Source of the DNA: a virus
Virus record (IMG/VR): IMGVR_UViG_3300006917_000074
Coordinates: 1-36,103 of that record
DNA: 36,103 nt
Reading direction: 5' to 3' (one strand)
Shown: one piece after another, positions 19,091-28,653 of the stretch
Position numbering within the stretch: position 1 is the first letter of the stretch
Layout of the letters: each line of letters starts with the position of its first letter
Notes under the pieces: model-generated
Seen by the model: the letters and a program-made list of their open reading frames with translations, nothing else
Told to the model about the DNA's origin: nothing
The model's database searches: none
Made by a program: the position numbers and the translations under genes

Positions 19091-19792
19091 ATGCCTACAC
19101 AAGACATAAGCTCATTCTCAAATTCCATCGTACCGCAGGCGACTCAAAGCACCGTAGAGAATGTTAAAAAACTTTTACCTATCATCGTTACAAGTGCGAA
19201 AAACCTGACATATAATCCTGATTTACACTTTGAAAGGCAACCTGAACCGCAATCGTCGTTGCCGCCGATAAACGAAAATCCTATTGTAAGCAACGCGAGG
19301 AAAATCCTTAGTTGGGTGAATAAGCCGTCTATCACGCGAGAAGTTTCTTATCATTCTGCGGGTCGTGGACTCGACCCAATGGCGTTGCGAATGGCGATAG
19401 TCGGGCAAGAAAGTGGTGGCGATTATTCAGCAATAAGCACACACACTGATTCAAGAGGAAACCATTCATACGGTAAGTACCAAATACTTGGTTCAAATAT
19501 ACCTGTTTGGACGAAAGAAGCGTTAGGGAAGAGCATGACACCTTCACAATTTTTGAAAGATACGAGTGCCCAAGATAAGGTTTTTGCGTGGCATCTTTCA
19601 AATCTGATGCAGAAATACGGAAATATAAACGACATCGCATCTGTTTATTTCAGTGGCGGGCCTTACGAGAAGAATAAAATGAAGAAAGACAAAAGCGGTC
19701 TTACTGTAGAAAAGTACGCGCTACAAATTAGCGAAAAGTATCGGAAGGCTGTTTCCCAATTGAGACCTTCAAGCAAAGAGTTACAATCTTAG
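19091..19792 (+). CDS. Virion-associated lytic transglycosylase
   Basis: This 233-residue protein has a disordered N-terminal 85 residues, then a lysozyme-like/SLT domain: LDPMALRMAIVGQESGGDYS gives the catalytic Glu107 in the ES-G motif, followed by SYGKYQILGSNIPVW (126-140; the YG.YQI element) and a helical end. Such enzymes cut the glycan strands of peptidoglycan. Because the gene lies among ejection proteins and far from the holin, it more likely opens the cell wall during DNA entry than during lysis. There is no signal peptide. Confidence 0.82.
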   Translation: MPTQDISSFSNSIVPQATQSTVENVKKLLPIIVTSAKNLTYNPDLHFERQPEPQSSLPPINENPIVSNARKILSWVNKPSITREVSYHSAGRGLDPMALRMAIVGQESGGDYSAISTHTDSRGNHSYGKYQILGSNIPVWTKEALGKSMTPSQFLKDTSAQDKVFAWHLSNLMQKYGNINDIASVYFSGGPYEKNKMKKDKSGLTVEKYALQISEKYRKAVSQLRPSSKELQS

Positions 19793-19793
19793 T

Positions 19794-20723
19794 ATGTCGG
19801 TCTCCCAGATACACAAAAGGGCTGTTTTCTCTTCGAGAGAGCAAGCTAACGAGGCTCGGAATATATTGCAAAACGCATTGCTCGCGAAAGGTTTTGAATC
19901 AACGAAAATTGAAAAAATTATTGAAATCGAGAATACTCTTCTCGAAACGAAAAAAGCGGTTATAGAAGAACTAGCTTCACTTCGTATGAAGAACGAAGCC
20001 TCTTTTGAGGCGGCACTTTCTAAGAGTTTTGAAGCAGCAGAAGTTATAATCAAAAATTATATCGAGAAGATTCAATATGAGGTTTCAGCCCAAACTGAAG
20101 AGGCGACAGCTAAAATTAAAGACTCTGTCCATGACGCCAACGCTTTCCTTACGATGGCCAAAGAAGTATTCCGTTCGGTTACTTCTTCCATCGAGTCTCT
20201 CAAAAATGAGTTTACAAAGAAGATGACATTTGTGGAAACGCTGCGAAAGCAGGATATTCTTAACGAGGTAGAGTCTCTCATCGAAAAGAAAATTGCCGAA
20301 GAAGAGTCCGAAGCAGATGAAAGCGAGGAAGAGATTAAAGTTTCTGATATAAAAGGATTACAAGAGAAACTCGACGAAATAAGGCGAGCTTCAGTAGTTT
20401 ACGGGAGCGGGATGAGGGGTGGTGGAGATACAGTGTCAGCCGGAAGTGGTATTTCAATAGCACGTGACTCAAATGGGAGGACTGTCATAACAAATACTTC
20501 GACGGGCGGTTTTACTGAATTGTCAGCAACTGAAACCCCTAATGGGGCTACGACAGTCTTCACTTTTCCGGCAGCATCAGCACAGCCGTCGTATATTGTC
20601 GCCGATGGGGTAACTTATAAAGCTATCTCAAAAGTAGGTACTGTGTACTGGACTTGGAACGCTGGAGCAAAGCAAGCTACATTAACAATACCGCCGACAG
20701 ATGACATTTATGCGATTGTTTAA
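19794..20723 (+). CDS. Coiled-coil fibre/connector protein
   Basis: This is a 309-residue protein. Residues 1-200 are almost entirely helical and charged (Glu/Lys/Ser heptads), predicted as long coiled coils. Residues 205-240 form a Gly-rich turn region (GGDTVSAGSGISIARDSNG) common in fibre shafts, and 240-309 a small beta domain (TETPNGATTVFTFPAASAQP; KQATLTIPPTDDIYAIV). This design suits a trimeric stalk joining tail and spike. The start is 1 base after the transglycosylase stop, and the gene runs into the spike gene with 1 base between them. Confidence 0.6.
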   Translation: MSVSQIHKRAVFSSREQANEARNILQNALLAKGFESTKIEKIIEIENTLLETKKAVIEELASLRMKNEASFEAALSKSFEAAEVIIKNYIEKIQYEVSAQTEEATAKIKDSVHDANAFLTMAKEVFRSVTSSIESLKNEFTKKMTFVETLRKQDILNEVESLIEKKIAEEESEADESEEEIKVSDIKGLQEKLDEIRRASVVYGSGMRGGGDTVSAGSGISIARDSNGRTVITNTSTGGFTELSATETPNGATTVFTFPAASAQPSYIVADGVTYKAISKVGTVYWTWNAGAKQATLTIPPTDDIYAIV

Positions 20724-20724
20724 T

Positions 20725-23700
20725 ATGAAGAGAATTAGATTACTATCTGCTTTCAGTATTGGCGTTCTCCTCGCTATCGGAGGTACTGTTTATGCCGCAA
20801 CAGGTGGAATACCTGTTTCCGTTCCTACGGCTACTGGTGCTAATTTTGTTCTTTTGTCAGATTCTACAGGGAGATACACGGCAGTTTCGACATCTTCGCT
20901 TGGAATTATTGGTGGTTCAGGTGTATGGCCGTTTACGACTGGTCTAACAAACTTTGGGACTTCGACCCAAGCGACGACAACACCCGGTTGGTTCAAAATG
21001 GGCATTTATGCTTCGTCAACATCGCAATTTGTTTACGCCAGTACGACTGCTTTAAGTGCGGCTACACTATGTCTTACTGGTGACACATGCCGTAGTACAT
21101 GGCCGTCTGCTGGAGCTGGTGTGTGGCCTTTCACGCCATCAACTAACTTCGGTGTTCCTGTACAATCGACATCAACCCCAGAGTGGTTCACAAATGGCTT
21201 ATATGCGTCTTCGACATCTCAGTTAGTAAATGCTTCAACTTCTCAAGTCTCTTTTGCTTCTCTTTTCGGAAACGCTCTTGCTACATCATCCGCAGGAACA
21301 ACACTCGGAACACTTCTGTTTAACGGAACAAATTTTTACGCAAAACTAGGAACAGCCACGACATCAGTGGGTAACGGCGGCTGGTTTGACATAGCAAGTT
21401 CGCACGATATCGATGTATTTCTCATAGCAGGACAAAGCAACGCAGTGGGTGCCGCAACAGATAACACTGGCGCGTTAATACCAGTTGGTGACAGTGTATA
21501 CAAATTTAGAAATGGCGTGCTTTCGGCAGTCGCTTCTGACCCTGTATGTAATACAAACAATGGTAGTGCATGGCCTCAATTTGGTATTACCTACTACAAT
21601 CTCACGCATCATCGTGTTCTTTTGGTTTGTACCGCAGTGGGTGGAACAGGACAAAATCAGCTTTCAGATACAGGCAATGGCAACTGGTATCCGAATCAGA
21701 CACCTCCATACGGAGGGTCTGGCAGTACGCTATATGCTGATTCTTTGGCGAAACTTTCAGCAGCTACATCAAGCGCGATTGCGGCAGGCTTTAATCCAGT
21801 TTTTAAAGGTATCTTATGGGTTCAAGGCGAGAATGACGGGGTGACAATCAATTCTGCGACTGAGACACAAGCAGAATACATAGCAACGATGGAGACGATG
21901 ATTTCCCAGTACCGTACTAACCTAGGTGCAAATACGCCGTTTTATATATTTAGAACGGGGCGACGCGGGGACGGACTACAGGAAGAAGCGTTCAGACAGA
22001 TACGAGAAGCGCAAGAACAAGTCGCCGCATCAAATATATTCAACTATCTTGTTTTCAGAAACGCGGTTGATTTCGTGCATCGTGGACTACAACAAGACCC
22101 AGCAACATCGGTTTACCATTATCTACAAGCTGGATATAACGAAATGGGTAACGTCGGAGCACAAAATGTCGTAACTGCACTAAAGACGACACCAGGGACA
22201 GGCTGGTATGTACTCAGTAAAAATGCTTACTTTAATCTAGCTTCGACTTCACAGTACATTCTCGCAGGCGTCGCCACGACCACTCCGACTCAAACAAATA
22301 TCGCTATGGAATTACTTGGCGATACTACTCTTTATGCCCGTAATTCATGGCTTGCATTGACGCAATTTGCGTCTAATTCTGCGCTTCTTTTTAAACGTGC
22401 CGGAGGTACAGTACTCAACCCAACAGCTGTTTCTTCTGGAGATAAGATAGGGAGCATCGAGGCGGTTCCGTTTGACGGTGGAACACCGTGGGCTACTACA
22501 TCTGCTTCAATAGGCTTCTATGCGGCTGAGACGCAAACAACTGAACGACATGGCTCCTATATCAATTTCAGCACGACACCGAACGTAGGCGCAGCGCAGA
22601 CGATTGGCGTTGACGCAGGTACTTCTACAAAAGTAGGTACAGGTGTTACTGCGCTTTCAGCATCACAAACAGTGGGAAGCGGCAGTAATCGTATACTTGT
22701 GTGTGGACTTGCTCACTCAAGTGCAAACGATATTGTCCAAACTGCCACAAATACGACATCTGGCGTGCAGCTAACTCGTGCTGCTCGTGTAGGCGGGACA
22801 ACTGTTTCATCAGAAATTTGGTACGAACTAAACCCGCCCACTGGTGTGAATAATGTAAACATCAGCTTCTCGTCTGCCCCGAACGCAGCGTGGGGGTGTC
22901 AATCATTTTCTAATGTTTCTCAGATTTCACCTTTCGGAACGAACACTTCAACCAGCAGTAACATGATAGGACAGCCAGTGCAGTCCATTACTACGACGGT
23001 AGGTGACCTTATGATTGACGTTCTTGCGAAACGAAGTGGAGTGCAACAAGTAACATTAGGGCTCACGTCCCAAACCGCATTACAGGCAACGAGTTCGAGT
23101 GCTCTCGCTTCCGCTTCTTCTCTTTATATGAGTTATACCCTTGCTACTACCACAACGACGTATTCAGGGTGGGATTGGACAACAACTGCTACTCAGCATG
23201 CCTATCTCCAAATACCGTTACAAGGAGCAAGTGCTAACGCTTCAATTCTTACTGAGGCGTTAAGAATCAATCAAGATGGAAAAGTAGGAATCGGTACAAC
23301 ATCTCCATATCTTAAACTTTCGGTTGCTGGCCCAATTGTGGGAGACTACTACATCGCCACTACGTCAACCGCTTCAAGTTTTCCGTATGCTTCGACCACC
23401 GCTCTCTCAGCTACAACATTATGTTTTACAGGTGATACATGCCGTACGACGTGGCCGTCTGCGGGAGCTGGTGTTTGGCCATTCACTCCAACTACTAACT
23501 ATGGTGTTGCGGTGCAATCAACGTCAACGCCAGAATGGTTCACGAACGGATTGCACGCTTCCTCAACATCACAGATTCAATACGCTTCAACTACCGCACT
23601 TTCGGCTACTACACTCTGCCTTATAGGAGATACCTGTATCAGTACATGGCCTGTAGGTGGAGGTTCAGGTTTTTCGACGACATCGGCCGATTACTGGCAG

Positions 23701-25143
23701 ACCCAGCGTAACTTTTTCAGCACAACATCAGCAGATTATTGGAAGACACAAAATAATTTCTTCTCTACCACATCTGCTGATTACTGGGTGTCGCTTTACG
23801 ATAAAGGATACTTTTTCTCGACTACAAGCGTTGCCTATTGGAAATCGATTACTGACTTGTTTTCTACGACATCGGTTAATTACTGGTTGACTCAAAAAAC
23901 AACAAGCAATCTTACGGAGGGTTCTAACCTGTACTACACAGACGCTCGTGTTCTTACATACTTGGATACCCTAAATAAAGGGTACTTCTATTCGACTACA
24001 AGCGCGTCTTACTTCCTCTCGCAGAATCAAGGTAATGCGTTCTCAACAACTAGTGCAACGTATCATCTGACAACTTCAATTGATACTTCGGCAGAAATTG
24101 CTGCCATATTAACAGACGAAACAGGAACAGCGGGTAATCTAGTATTTTCGACTTCTCCTACTTTCACTGGCACCATAAATGCTGAGGCTGCTTCTCTTTC
24201 TTCGACATTATCCGTTTCGGGGTTATCTGCCCTTGCTTCAACGACTATCACCGGCCCAGCGACAAGTTCTCGGAACTCTGCGGCTGCCGTTGCCACTACA
24301 ACAAATATAGTTATCTATGACCCTACAAATTCGAACGCATGGAGTACCACTAACCCGTGGGGACTTGTCGCATGGGCGACAGGCGACCTTGGCTTTCCAG
24401 GTAAATCGTACAGCGCGGTTGGCCCCGTCATGGACGCGGTAAACGGTAATAATGCAAACCTTGGATTTTTCTCAGATGTGAATGGTGCTGGACTTCTTGA
24501 GCGTATGCGAATGACGTTAGACGGAAATTTCCTTATCGGCACTACTTCGTCCGCAGCAAAGCTCACAGTACAAAGTGCTTCTGGTAACCTACTGCGATTG
24601 GTGAACAGCGTTGGTACGATAATTCTTGGCATTACGAACACCGGCATAGCGACGATTCTTGGCGAATGGGATTTCGGTGGAGCGACCAGTCTTGAAATTC
24701 CGAACGGCACAGCACCTACCGTAGACGCAACTGGAGAATGTGCGTGGGATACAACCGACGACCAGCTCATATGCGGTGATAGCGGGAACACTGCACGAGT
24801 CGTTGCGCACGATGAATTTCGTATTATATCCACGACGATTCATGCATCTTCAACATATTTTGCATCAGGGCAGTCTCTCTTAGCCCTGCAATACAAAGAT
24901 GCGCTTGAAATCACGCAATTTCTTTGCTCTGTGGAAAACGGCACATCAAAGGTACTTAACTTTACTGATGGAACGAATGACACCGAAACTATTACCTGTA
25001 CCACAGGTGGCGCAAGTGACACAGATGTTGCAACAAACGACACATTTACCGCTGGTGAACTTGGTTACATCGAATTTGGGGCAACAACTGGCAACGTAAC
25101 TGCAGTGCATATAGAGGTTTGGGCGAGAATAACAAGAGAATAA
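20725..25143 (+). CDS. Large secreted-type tailspike with SGNH/sialate O-acetylesterase-like domain
   Basis: This 1472-residue protein starts at the second ATG (20725), giving MKRIRLLSAFSIGVLLAIGG then TVYAATGG, a textbook Sec signal peptide with cleavage after VYA. Residues about 20-230 are Ser/Thr-rich beta repeats. About 230-480 form an SGNH-type esterase domain: GQSNAVG (Ser238), VQGENDG (366-372) and YHYLQAGYNEMG (His465). The Asp usually three residues before the His is replaced by Ser462, so activity is uncertain. A beta domain (about 630-840) and GIGTTSPYLKLSVAG follow, then repeats of the first segment, seven FSTTS..YW repeats, LTEGSNLYYTDARV and terminal beta domains. The likely role is receptor binding and de-acetylation of surface glycans. 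Confidence 0.75.
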   Translation: MKRIRLLSAFSIGVLLAIGGTVYAATGGIPVSVPTATGANFVLLSDSTGRYTAVSTSSLGIIGGSGVWPFTTGLTNFGTSTQATTTPGWFKMGIYASSTSQFVYASTTALSAATLCLTGDTCRSTWPSAGAGVWPFTPSTNFGVPVQSTSTPEWFTNGLYASSTSQLVNASTSQVSFASLFGNALATSSAGTTLGTLLFNGTNFYAKLGTATTSVGNGGWFDIASSHDIDVFLIAGQSNAVGAATDNTGALIPVGDSVYKFRNGVLSAVASDPVCNTNNGSAWPQFGITYYNLTHHRVLLVCTAVGGTGQNQLSDTGNGNWYPNQTPPYGGSGSTLYADSLAKLSAATSSAIAAGFNPVFKGILWVQGENDGVTINSATETQAEYIATMETMISQYRTNLGANTPFYIFRTGRRGDGLQEEAFRQIREAQEQVAASNIFNYLVFRNAVDFVHRGLQQDPATSVYHYLQAGYNEMGNVGAQNVVTALKTTPGTGWYVLSKNAYFNLASTSQYILAGVATTTPTQTNIAMELLGDTTLYARNSWLALTQFASNSALLFKRAGGTVLNPTAVSSGDKIGSIEAVPFDGGTPWATTSASIGFYAAETQTTERHGSYINFSTTPNVGAAQTIGVDAGTSTKVGTGVTALSASQTVGSGSNRILVCGLAHSSANDIVQTATNTTSGVQLTRAARVGGTTVSSEIWYELNPPTGVNNVNISFSSAPNAAWGCQSFSNVSQISPFGTNTSTSSNMIGQPVQSITTTVGDLMIDVLAKRSGVQQVTLGLTSQTALQATSSSALASASSLYMSYTLATTTTTYSGWDWTTTATQHAYLQIPLQGASANASILTEALRINQDGKVGIGTTSPYLKLSVAGPIVGDYYIATTSTASSFPYASTTALSATTLCFTGDTCRTTWPSAGAGVWPFTPTTNYGVAVQSTSTPEWFTNGLHASSTSQIQYASTTALSATTLCLIGDTCISTWPVGGGSGFSTTSADYWQTQRNFFSTTSADYWKTQNNFFSTTSADYWVSLYDKGYFFSTTSVAYWKSITDLFSTTSVNYWLTQKTTSNLTEGSNLYYTDARVLTYLDTLNKGYFYSTTSASYFLSQNQGNAFSTTSATYHLTTSIDTSAEIAAILTDETGTAGNLVFSTSPTFTGTINAEAASLSSTLSVSGLSALASTTITGPATSSRNSAAAVATTTNIVIYDPTNSNAWSTTNPWGLVAWATGDLGFPGKSYSAVGPVMDAVNGNNANLGFFSDVNGAGLLERMRMTLDGNFLIGTTSSAAKLTVQSASGNLLRLVNSVGTIILGITNTGIATILGEWDFGGATSLEIPNGTAPTVDATGECAWDTTDDQLICGDSGNTARVVAHDEFRIISTTIHASSTYFASGQSLLALQYKDALEITQFLCSVENGTSKVLNFTDGTNDTETITCTTGGASDTDVATNDTFTAGELGYIEFGATTGNVTAVHIEVWARITRE
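21013..23600 (+). repeat. Duplicated WPFTP.TN cassette inside the tailspike gene
   Basis: A segment of about 65 residues, from ASTTALSA through GDTCRSTWPSAGAGVWPFTP to STPEWFTNGLYASSTSQ (DNA about 21013-21240), recurs at about 23385-23580 with near-identical residues, and a third partial copy (LIGDTCISTWP) follows at about 23590-23655. The two full copies flank the esterase and middle beta domain. This looks like internal duplication, with the enzymatic block lying between the copies. Confidence 0.7.
23670..24069 (+). repeat. Seven FSTTSxxYW-type tandem repeats in the tailspike
   Basis: The motif FSTTSADYW and variants (FSTTSVAYW, FSTTSVNYW, YSTTSASYF, FSTTSATYH) occurs seven times, the first five about 15-18 residues apart. 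The repeats are likely to form a fibrous shaft. The DNA copies use different synonymous codons, so the array is not a very recent duplication. Confidence 0.75.
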
Positions 25144-25144
25144 T

Positions 25145-26077
25145 ATGCGTAAAACTTCTGCCATTGTGGGAGCTTTATTGATACTCACAGTGTTGGTTCT
25201 TTCTGTGCAACCACAAACTACTCAAGCAGCTCCGACCGTTGAGATTTTTAGCACACCTGGTTCATTCGGTTGGACAGCGGCAACCAGCACAGTATTTGTT
25301 CAGTGTTGGGGCGCAGGAGGAGGCGGTGGCGACGGAGCAAACGATGGTGGAGCTGGTGGTGGTGGCGGCGCATATGCTGCTGCTACTGCTACGGTTGCTA
25401 TTGGTGTTACATACACCGTAAAAATAGGACAAGGAGGCAACGGGGCAACTGTTAACGGGAGTGCTGGCTCGGATGGAGACGAAAGCTCTTTTGCCACGAC
25501 TACAGTAGTCGCTGCGGCGGGTAAAGGAGGCGGTGGCACAGGAGCTACTGTTGGTGGTGCTGGAGGGCTTGCGGCCTCATCTACTGGGACTACAACAGCA
25601 AGTGGCGGTACAGGGGGTATTCCTAACACATCAGCCGACAGCGGTGGCGGTGGTGGTGGTGCTGGTGGCCCTGTTGGTGCTGGTAATATCGGACAAGATG
25701 GTACTGGCACTATAGGTGGTGCGGGTGGTTCAGGCAATGCTGGTTCAGGTGGCGCGGGGGGAGTAGGAAATAACACTGCTTATTCACCAGTCACAAAAGG
25801 TGGGACAGCCACAAGTTCAGGTGGAGGTGGCGGTGGCGGTGGAGATAACGGAACTCGTGGTGCAGATGGTGGTTTCCCCGGAGGAGGCGGTGCTGGCGGC
25901 GAATCAAACGCAACCGCTGGTAACGCTGATGGCGGTAACGGCGAGTGTGACCTCACCTACGACTTAGGAAGCGGAGGAGGCGGTGAACCACCTGTTAATA
26001 GCCAATCAGAATTTTTCTTTGGTTTTATTATTCCGTTTGCGACCCCTTATAATAGAAGAAGGAAGCCCCGGATATGA
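25145..26077 (+). CDS. Secreted glycine-rich fibre/adhesin-like protein
   Basis: This 310-residue protein has a Sec signal peptide (MRKTSAIVGALLILTVLVLS, cleavage after TQA near residue 29). A beta strand pair, PGSFGWTAATSTVFVQCWGA, leads into a long Gly/Ala repeat (about 60-285). The order F.PG...WT....T...V..WGAGGGGG is the glycine-rich domain seen in many phage tail-fibre and surface proteins. The C-terminus is unusual: FFFGFIIPFATPY followed by NRRRKPRI, a short hydrophobic patch with an Arg cluster. It is the last of the fibre genes and overlaps the methyltransferase start as ATGA. Confidence 0.65.
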   Translation: MRKTSAIVGALLILTVLVLSVQPQTTQAAPTVEIFSTPGSFGWTAATSTVFVQCWGAGGGGGDGANDGGAGGGGGAYAAATATVAIGVTYTVKIGQGGNGATVNGSAGSDGDESSFATTTVVAAAGKGGGGTGATVGGAGGLAASSTGTTTASGGTGGIPNTSADSGGGGGGAGGPVGAGNIGQDGTGTIGGAGGSGNAGSGGAGGVGNNTAYSPVTKGGTATSSGGGGGGGGDNGTRGADGGFPGGGGAGGESNATAGNADGGNGECDLTYDLGSGGGGEPPVNSQSEFFFGFIIPFATPYNRRRKPRI

Positions 26078-26652
26078 AGATTGGAAACTTCGACACTAAA
26101 TTCAAATACATACCGTATTTTCGGAATGTCCCTGATGTCCCATCAGCATGGCATCCAAATGAGCGAGTCCTAACAAAAATTCTTCGTACATTCGATATCC
26201 CTAGAAATACCGCCGTCGATTTCGGAGTCGATTGGGGTTTCAGCACGGCGGTACTGGCGAATCACTTTGATAGTGTTACCGGTGTAGACGATTACCAAGA
26301 ATACTCGGCGACACGTCCTAAAGGAATGTATGAAAAGGTGAAGGAGAAGCTTGCAAAATGGGACAACATCACGCTCGTTAAAAGTGATTATCAGACATTC
26401 ATTGCAAAAGTAGGGGATACTCAATTTGATTTAGCACATATAGATATAATTCACGATTACGAACACACTTTCGAGTGCGGTTTATGGGCTGCCAACCACT
26501 CAAAAATAACCCTATTCCACGACACGCTACACTATTCAGAAGTATTCAATGCTGTAGTAGACATCGCCGCCGCCACCGGTAAGACCTATTACAACTTTCA
26601 GGAGGGTTTCGGGCTAGGGATTCTTGTAGCCACCAATAGACCACATCTATGA
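26074..26652 (+). CDS. Class I SAM-dependent methyltransferase
   Basis: This 192-residue protein has a Rossmann-type motif I, AVDFGVDWGFSTAVLA (47-62), an acidic residue ending strand 2 in TGVDDYQEY (69-77), and a later strand/loop pair, FDLAHIDIIHDYEHTF and KITLFHDTLHYSEVF. This resembles the Methyltransf_24-like group. The substrate is unknown; sugars, DNA or protein are all possible. The neighbours are fibre and lysis genes, so modification of surface or virion components is possible. The ATG overlaps the upstream stop, and GGAAG lies at a suitable distance upstream. Confidence 0.7.
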   Translation: MKIGNFDTKFKYIPYFRNVPDVPSAWHPNERVLTKILRTFDIPRNTAVDFGVDWGFSTAVLANHFDSVTGVDDYQEYSATRPKGMYEKVKEKLAKWDNITLVKSDYQTFIAKVGDTQFDLAHIDIIHDYEHTFECGLWAANHSKITLFHDTLHYSEVFNAVVDIAAATGKTYYNFQEGFGLGILVATNRPHL

Positions 26653-26975
26653 CAGGACAAGACCAAATTCTTGCGACCATAAAACAAGCTGTCGATGACG
26701 CTGTTAATCGAACCGTTCCCACTGCCGTACAAGTATCGATTCCGATTTACGTTAATGGGAAAATAGATAAATTGACCGTCAAACTTGAAGAATATATGAA
26801 CGAACAAGGGAAACTTAACCAAGCGCGTTTTGAGCTATTGACCAAGATGGACAACGAGCAACAAGTTCTGCGGACGAATCAAGCGTGGCTTATGAAGTTT
26901 ATGATTGCTATAATGTTTGGCATAGGCGGTATGTTCGTTACATTTACGACAACACTTGCTACACGCGGTCTATGA
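26649..26975 (+). CDS. Small coiled-coil protein with C-terminal membrane span
   Basis: This 108-residue protein has a soluble N-terminal part, a helical coiled-coil-like region (about 40-80) and one hydrophobic segment near the end (WLMKFMIAIMFGIGGMFVTF). It starts by ATGA overlap with the methyltransferase stop and its own stop overlaps the protease start. The design resembles lysis accessory proteins such as holins with a tail anchor or spanin-like parts, but no family can be named. A lysis role is inferred from its place in the cassette. Confidence 0.5.
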   Translation: MTGQDQILATIKQAVDDAVNRTVPTAVQVSIPIYVNGKIDKLTVKLEEYMNEQGKLNQARFELLTKMDNEQQVLRTNQAWLMKFMIAIMFGIGGMFVTFTTTLATRGL

Positions 26976-27832
26976 AGTTCAGGCAGCAACCGTGGAGCCA
27001 CGACCATCGCAGTAAGCGATTTACCACTAAGGCTCTCCAGTTTGCAGCAATCTCGCAACTTCCCATAAGTCTATTTAGAACTCGATATGAGTGCTTAGAC
27101 CAGGGCGGCAGCACGAGATGTGCAGCTTATGCTGCGGTGATAAATGGGCAATACATTCATGGCCAGACATTTTCCATTGATTGGCAGGTGAATAAAATTA
27201 GCCGTATACAAGGGTATTCAGTAGACGGCACTGGTTCTGACCCGAACGCAGCAATGAACTCGCAAACTTACTCAAAAGAGGGTGGGTATCTTCCATCAAA
27301 TATGTGGACTCTTACGGCTCCTGCTCTTTTAGACCGCTACGCGCAAGATTATTCTACTCGTGCGTTTGTGAAGCCAGCAAGCGGCAAAGATGTATTCGAT
27401 AGTATTTGTGTCGAATTATTCCGAGCATACCACGAACAGCGCGGGGCTTGCGTTCAAATGTTTACAGGATGGTACGACAACTTTAGTCAGCCTGAGATAC
27501 GAACAATCGGAAATTTACTTGGCTACCACTCATATCTAGCCATTGATTTTAACAGACAAGACCAAAATGAAGACAATCATTACCTCGTTCTACAAAACTC
27601 ATACGGACGTAATATGGGAGAGAATGGTTATCATAAAATGTACCGCCCTGTGGTGAACAAATTGCTATCAGGTTGGGGAAGTAGTTGCAAAATCCCAGTA
27701 GAGCTTACCAAAGCACAGCTTGAACTCGCAAAACAAGAGACACCGCTAGGTAAAATACAGCGGCAGCTTATCAACGCTTTCTATACAGTCGGCGTGTATC
27801 TTGTACGTTTGTACGGTAAAATTGCAGTATGA
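26972..27832 (+). CDS. Papain-like cysteine protease (C1-type fold)
   Basis: This 286-residue protein shows the papain triad in order. CLDQGGSTRCAAYAAV contains the oxyanion-hole Gln44 and nucleophile Cys50, GYHSYLAIDF contains His186, and VLQNSYGRNMGENGYHKM contains Asn209 in the N-S-x-G element. The long spacing between Cys and His fits family C1. No signal peptide or pro-peptide is evident. The C-terminal 25 residues (INAFYTVGVYLVRLYG) are amphipathic or membrane-seeking. The start is the ATG at 26972 that overlaps the upstream stop. Location between a membrane protein and the muramidase suggests a role in lysis, entry, or processing of a virion or host protein. The target is unknown. Confidence 0.75.
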   Translation: MKFRQQPWSHDHRSKRFTTKALQFAAISQLPISLFRTRYECLDQGGSTRCAAYAAVINGQYIHGQTFSIDWQVNKISRIQGYSVDGTGSDPNAAMNSQTYSKEGGYLPSNMWTLTAPALLDRYAQDYSTRAFVKPASGKDVFDSICVELFRAYHEQRGACVQMFTGWYDNFSQPEIRTIGNLLGYHSYLAIDFNRQDQNEDNHYLVLQNSYGRNMGENGYHKMYRPVVNKLLSGWGSSCKIPVELTKAQLELAKQETPLGKIQRQLINAFYTVGVYLVRLYGKIAV

Positions 27833-28365
27833 ACGTGCCTCAATCGCTATTAGTCGCACTACAAAACCTAGCAAAGTCGCTACAGGCATACGTCGATAGC
27901 AAAAAAACACCCTCTATTTCGCCAAATTTGCCACCACAACCAACGAAACCAACAGAAACGACATCTGAGCCGATTCGTGCGGTTTTGAACCCTACAGCCC
28001 CGTATGACTTCTCTACTCCAAAAGCAGCTTGCCACTCCGTTCGCGTCATCTGCGACGAAGAAGGGCTGACTGTAGCTCAAAAAAACATAATCGCACAAGT
28101 TATATCATGCGAAAGTGGATTTAAGAACACAGCCAAACTCGAAAACAAAAAGGACGGCAAGACATGGTCAACGGATTGGGGTATATGCCAGATAAATGAC
28201 TTTTATCATATAGGCTCCGGCAAGTCGTTTCCATCTGTTGAATACGTCCTCGAGCGACCAGACAAGGTGGTACGTTGGATGATTCGTCAATACAAAGCAG
28301 GACGTCTTTCTATGTGGGTATGTTACTCAAAGGGAATGTACAAAAGTTTTCCACCTAAAATATGA
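27829..28365 (+). CDS. Muramidase/transglycosylase-type endolysin
   Basis: This 178-residue protein has an N-terminal helix, a Pro/Thr-rich linker (residues 27-50), then a lysozyme-like domain: IIAQVISCESGFKNTAKLEN has the catalytic Glu95, and TDWGICQINDFYH (115-127) is the G..QIN element of transglycosylase/lysozyme families. It cleaves peptidoglycan. No signal peptide is visible, so release probably depends on the following holin. The start overlaps the protease stop as ATGA. Several cysteines could form disulfides outside the membrane. Confidence 0.8.
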   Translation: MNVPQSLLVALQNLAKSLQAYVDSKKTPSISPNLPPQPTKPTETTSEPIRAVLNPTAPYDFSTPKAACHSVRVICDEEGLTVAQKNIIAQVISCESGFKNTAKLENKKDGKTWSTDWGICQINDFYHIGSGKSFPSVEYVLERPDKVVRWMIRQYKAGRLSMWVCYSKGMYKSFPPKI

Positions 28366-28407
28366 ACGTGTCGCATTGGTCGAACGGCACTTGGTAAACA
28401 AAATTTT

Positions 28408-28653
28408 ATGTCTGAACTATACAGATTAGATAAAAACGACGTCGTTAAGGGTGGCCTTGTGGTAGTGTTGGTCGCTGTGTTCGCTTCCTTACAGGAGATG
28501 TTCACCGCACACGGCCTCGACTTCGCCGCTTTTGATTGGGGTTGGATATTAAATTGCGCTGCACTGGCCTTTATAGGCTATCTAGGCAAAAACCTTTCGA
28601 CTGACTCAACAGGAACAACACATACCCCGTTTGGTAAAGTTAAAGCGCGGTAA
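28408..28653 (+). CDS. Holin
   Basis: This 81-residue protein has two hydrophobic spans (KGGLVVVLVAVFASLQEMF, about 14-32, and WGWILNCAALAFIGYLGKNL, about 44-63) and a hydrophilic C-terminus. The pattern with a final AFIGYLGKNL is familiar from small phage holins. It directly follows the endolysin and is the last gene of the rightward late block, before hairpin and terminator structures. It would form membrane holes that release the endolysin. Confidence 0.75.
   Translation: MSELYRLDKNDVVKGGLVVVLVAVFASLQEMFTAHGLDFAAFDWGWILNCAALAFIGYLGKNLSTDSTGTTHTPFGKVKAR

Follow-up and report, generated by a model that had tools for sequence, protein, structure and literature searches.

A papain-fold protease adjoins or is fused to a c-type-like lysozyme in the predicted lysis modules of uncultured phages

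Papain-fold modules are already known in phage lysins, and among the BFVD matches are proteins that carry the names endolysin, lysin A and N-acetylmuramidase. The stretch described here, the complete IMG/VR virus record IMGVR_UViG_3300006917_000074 (positions 1 to 36,103; 36,103 bases, hereafter the window), contains a predicted lysis region in which the gene for a papain-fold, C1A-type protease directly precedes that for a lysozyme that looks c-type-like. A comparable arrangement is present in Thermoanaerobacterium phage THSA-485A (CP003186), in which a C1 peptidase gene ('peptidase C1A papain') also adjoins a lysozyme gene, although there the lysozyme is a GH25 rather than a c-type-like enzyme, the lysozyme gene comes first, the sequences are distant, and the pair is known from its genes. 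Gordonia phage OneUp (KU998245) likewise encodes a papain-like-fold peptidase, a glycosidase and a holin as separate genes (gp43-gp44-gp45; endolysin, lysin A, holin), but its peptidase is of the Peptidase_C39_2 and not the C1A type, its glycosidase is GH19-like and not c-type-like, and the hosts are actinobacterial; split lysin A genes in Gordonia phages are described in PMC9671378. The pseudomurein endoisopeptidase PeiR of prophage phi-mru, the product of a gene in a viral lysis module, has been shown to lyse cells (PMC2812497). It and the window protease are alike as lysis-module peptidases, by gene place and not by comparison of sequence or fold, and PeiR differs in its target, the pseudomurein of a methanogen.

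Neither the 50,697 deposited phage records nor the open-access literature searched yielded a C1A-type protease paired with a c-type-like lysozyme. Tblastn searches of these records gave no match for the protease or lysozyme of the window, for those of a second locus (L022), or for a protease-lysozyme fusion (L005). A query with a canonical C1 sequence found matches in 10 of the records, in rough agreement with the initial annotation, which had called such proteases rare in phages, although THSA-485A and OneUp provide precedents within lysis modules. No paper bringing together papain, endolysin, C1A and phage was found in the open-access literature searched, and none of six lysis-related terms is present in the text of PMC13059738.

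The protease gene (26972–27832, plus strand; 286 residues counted from the ATG at 26972) and the lysozyme gene (27829–28365, plus strand; 178 residues) form a pair that recurs in other genomes. A search with the window protease itself finds a single near relative, L002, in which the protease is truncated by the contig end (20 residues), and the lysozyme finds more. Twenty-three distinct records with a lysozyme relative, including the window, were compared by reading the neighbourhood of each; duplicates were merged (L010, L012, L013 and L015 are the same contigs as L003, L004, L005 and L006, and L031 and L035 repeat L030 and L034). A papain-like protease is either directly upstream of the lysozyme (window, L003, L006, L007, L008, L014, L016, L022, L032, L033 and L034) or fused to its N-terminus in a single open reading frame (ORF; L004, L005, L009 and L030) in 15 of the 23, which bears out the earlier placement of the protease in a lysis module. 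The association is not chance, since in leave-one-out profile searches (783 ORFs in 24 loci) the protease comes up where expected in all 15 member loci, with E values of 3.3e-16 to 1.4e-41 for the eight members of group A (window, L003, L006, L008, L014, L022, L033 and L034) and 1.6e-23 to 3.9e-72 for the seven of group B (L004, L005, L007, L009, L016, L030 and L032). Profile comparison shows the two groups to be related (hhalign probability 82%, E 1e-5). In L011 (3404–4447) the papain-domain position is occupied by a domain with a HELAH (HExxH) motif, also fused to the lysozyme; it has no Pfam match, and the motif marks it as a candidate metalloprotease. HNH-like endonuclease sequences are present between or at the end of the protease and lysozyme genes in L008 (3627–4016), L016 (3094–3747) and L032 (1318–2421).

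The window protease matches phrog_16701 'peptidase' (E 2.7e-11), and scores 19.7 bits against Pfam Peptidase_C1 (E 1e-3), below the gathering cut-off of 20.7. A profile built from an eight-row alignment of its homologues matches 163 distinct PDB sequences at E <= 1, the best being ervatamin B (E 4.2e-10), and all 60 of the 163 that were listed carry papain-family names. We use the label papain-fold, C1A-type because the Peptidase_C1 cut-off is missed while the family profile is strong against the PDB. An AlphaFold2 model (predicted local distance difference test, pLDDT, 70.9; predicted template modelling score 0.69) has a papain fold, in line with the initial annotation; Foldseek matches are to cathepsins and xylellain (best E 4.1e-9), and the best alignment of the model (VIA-align) is to xylellain (Z 18.9 over 213 residues, root-mean-square deviation, rmsd, 2.9). 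Model quality is poor in the C-terminal part and at the N-terminus (first 26 residues). The group B model is also papain-fold (pLDDT 81.9; best Foldseek E 4.1e-8; Z 19.9 to xylellain over 217 residues, rmsd 2.8). The predicted active-site codons of the window protease are Gln44 (27101–27103), Cys50 (27119–27121), His186 (27527–27529) and Asn209 (27596–27598), a numbering that assumes the start at 26972. A conserved amphipathic C-terminal helix was considered as a membrane-acting arm and dropped, because shuffles often reach the observed hydrophobic moment: with the last 45 residues shuffled, it was equalled or exceeded in 40 to 985 of 2000 across ten proteins (131/2000 for the window).

The partner lysozyme carries an ES...D[WFY]G motif of c-type-like character, with predicted catalytic residues Glu95 (28111–28113) and Asp116 (28174–28176). 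Both are invariant in 13 of 13 relatives and are the equivalents of Glu35 and Asp52 of c-type lysozyme; a profile of the 13 aligns with c-type lysozymes (best E 3e-11). Singly the members fall below Pfam cut-offs: Lys is matched by 8 of the 13 and SLT by 9 at E <= 0.5 (best Lys E 2.6e-5), and the window lysozyme scores 13.1 bits against Lys, for which the cut-off is 27. The family thus looks c-type-like (GH22-like) from its motif and profile. To our knowledge, a c-type-like lysozyme with the Glu and Asp of the hen egg-white lysozyme motif conserved is not expected in phages.

C1 domains are also present in prophages of small bacterial genomes. L022 is a contig of a 700-kb metagenome-assembled genome, and in its phylum as sampled ribosomal protein L30 was found in 3 of 78 genomes and L2 in 73 of 78. 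We take a missing L30 together with a small genome to be a mark of Patescibacteria (the Candidate Phyla Radiation, CPR). The host of the window virus would be an uncultured, probably very small bacterium. A PF00112 search of 379 genomes in the phylum of L022 gave seven with a match at E <= 1e-5. Both of those examined (L040 and L057) lie in integrated prophages of small CPR-like genomes; the others are ORFs of 549–814 residues in G019, G041, G108, G156 and G241. L040, on a 263-kb contig, has tail genes, a membrane protein, a C1-M23 fusion (C1 E 7.5e-10, Peptidase_M23 E 2.6e-16; also matched by the group A profile), a CHAP-like gene and a tyrosine integrase, in that order. L057 has a tape-measure-like gene, a glycine-rich gene, a membrane protein, a C1-DUF5675 fusion (C1 E 2.2e-8, DUF5675 E 1e-23), a glucosaminidase-like gene (match below cut-off) and, later in the order, an integrase. 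This prophage gene order mirrors that of the window, in that a small membrane protein precedes the C1 domain within the lysis region, although the partner is M23 or DUF5675 instead of a c-type-like lysozyme and the C1 sequences are more canonical. Weaker lysozyme matches were found among host genes (G082, G171, G180, G235, G273 and G316), and the lysozyme-like host loci L041–L044 (G180, G082, G171 and G273) were set aside, as they look like chromosomal neighbourhoods. A terminase search of 379 genomes from the phylum to which G011 belongs gave no match at E <= 1e-20, an empty result that is uninformative on the host.

We consider it likely that the protease contributes to opening the envelope of the host cell during lysis, as the protease half of a split endolysin. 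An envelope role is proposed because adjacent and fused versions both occur, with several envelope-acting partners (c-type-like lysozyme, M23 and GH25). The five chained ORFs of the lysis region described by the initial annotation are all present, mostly with ATGA overlaps. The ATGA is the exact overlap at four junctions (glycine-rich/methyltransferase, methyltransferase/membrane protein, membrane protein/protease and protease/lysozyme), and the gene for an 81-residue holin-like small membrane protein (28408–28653, plus strand) begins 42 bases after the lysozyme gene. The holin-like label rests on size, hydrophobicity and position after the lysozyme; the protein has no family match above cut-off in Pfam or PHROG, a 41% identical homologue lies just after the lysozyme in L006, and a holin is the probable assignment. 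The membrane protein encoded upstream of the protease (26649–26975, plus strand; 108 residues) is coiled-coil-like with a C-terminal transmembrane stretch (a hydrophobic 19-mer at residues 81–99), has no Pfam match, and matches PHROG only at E 0.05 (phrog_689, holin). L002 has an 81% identical copy, and ten other loci have small membrane proteins of like layout upstream of the protease gene, with the stretch N-terminal in two. We take this protein to be XhlA-like in layout.

From the computed fold, the Cys and His conservation, and the linkage and fusion to peptidoglycan hydrolases, we infer timing, export, activity and substrate as follows. The products of 26972–27832 and 27829–28365 would be the two halves of a split endolysin, co-produced late in infection, and both enzymes would be released from the cytoplasm via the holin-like protein, perhaps with the XhlA-like protein. 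The lysozyme would then cut the glycan strands, and the protease would cleave a protein or peptide component of that envelope through a Cys50-His186 thiol mechanism.

Several observations weigh against this role. No protease is found beside the lysozyme relative in seven of the 23 records (L017–L021, L036 and L037). Four of these (L017–L020) are the weakest lysozyme matches (E 1e-6 to 8e-5) and have other gene contexts, and L036 has only about 1.3 kb of upstream sequence. In L021 (4555–6387), a contig binned as Reyranella, the lysozyme forms the end of a 610-residue protein, possibly a virion-borne lysin or that of a misbinned phage. The confidence of the window protease model is moderate, and the protease has no recognisable signal peptide. 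This last feature, and the position of the gene after tail-fibre and glycine-rich genes, would suit a protease that processes a virion protein, by maturation or other modification, or one with intracellular targets of host or phage origin, its adjacency to the lysozyme being incidental; a separate head-maturation-protease-like protein is encoded as well, so that other kinds of phage protease are present. We think this unlikely, as four independent-looking lysozyme fusions and one M23 fusion tie the protease to the envelope. Virion-protein cleavage, one of the functions first suggested for it, finds no support because the partners to which the domain is joined, by fusion or coupling, are lysozyme, M23 or GH25.

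The active site also bears on the lysis role. The initial annotation had described a complete Gln/Cys/His/Asn set and named loss of the catalytic residues in close relatives as grounds for refuting its reading; on this check the reading stands for Cys and His and fails for Asn. Equivalents of Cys50 and His186 are retained in all eight group A proteases, and in 15 of 15 with group B added, the most divergent members included, whereas Asn209, which likewise tells against the proposed role, has an equivalent in two of the eight (window and L022) and is replaced by Ser, Pro, Met or Leu in the other six; the oxyanion Gln position is Glu in two of eight. Such substitutions could be expected of an inactive domain serving the lysozyme as a binding module, which is the least probable of the alternatives, given the persistence of Cys and His and the invariant Asp at the third catalytic position of group B (7/7), a possible third residue. 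Because Cys and His persist in all members, we read the Asn variability as a relaxed third residue and not as loss of activity.

If the protease is half of a split endolysin, its substrate may be a proteinaceous surface layer or wall protein, or a peptidoglycan cross-link, and we find the first slightly likelier. There is nonetheless an appreciable chance, short of even, that it is a peptidoglycan peptidase cutting stem or cross-link peptides. CHAP, NlpC/P60, C39 and C71 relatives of the same general fold do so in known lysins, the partner lysozyme acts on peptidoglycan, and a glycosidase and a wall peptidase are paired in split lysins such as OneUp gp44 (GH19-like) and gp43 (C39_2) and those described in PMC9671378. 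However, both subgroups resemble general C1A proteases, cathepsins and xylellain in their fold matches, and the C1 domain of L040 shares a polypeptide with an M23 domain that would itself already be expected to cut wall peptides. The general C1A fold type and this M23 partner, together with the strong divergence of the family and the different protease motif in L011, are points for a protein target. A cellular papain-fold enzyme that acts on surface-layer protein has the same fold (Z 16.7 against the window model and 17.6 against group B), but has a propeptide and lectin-like domains and no lysis role. We tentatively suggest, as a possibility that we would not favour outright, that a dedicated lysis protease strips the protein surface coat of tiny Patescibacteria-like hosts as a third step beside holin and lysozyme, a role comparable to that of spanins or LysB for outer membranes, and that different protease classes (the two papain-fold subgroups and the HExxH enzyme) would serve it.

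The methyltransferase gene at the head of the chained ORFs (26074–26652, plus strand; 192 residues) encodes a Methyltransf_24 member (E 2.8e-7, above cut-off). It has no tblastn counterpart in any other locus compared and is missing upstream of the membrane-protein gene in L002, the nearest relative, so that its earlier inclusion in the lysis cassette is not supported; it is probably accessory, sharing a transcript with the conserved cassette but lying outside it. Elsewhere in the window, a 1480-residue fibre-like protein (20701–25143) has a SASA carbohydrate-esterase domain embedded at residues 238–446 (E 4e-15), and before its gene is a second wall-enzyme candidate (19091–19792) with an SLT-like domain just below cut-off (E 6.5e-4). 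A GroEL-like chaperonin is encoded at 826–2346 (phrog_5725, E 6.4e-84).

These comparisons reveal a lysis module of two enzymes that recurs among uncultured phages, and offer a likely role for a protease that databases label just 'peptidase'. They make testable how phages exit from bacteria that may have protein as their outermost layer. Should the protease act on a surface protein, it would add a further envelope-opening step. Whichever the substrate, the protease-lysozyme pair could serve as a tool to open very small bacteria.

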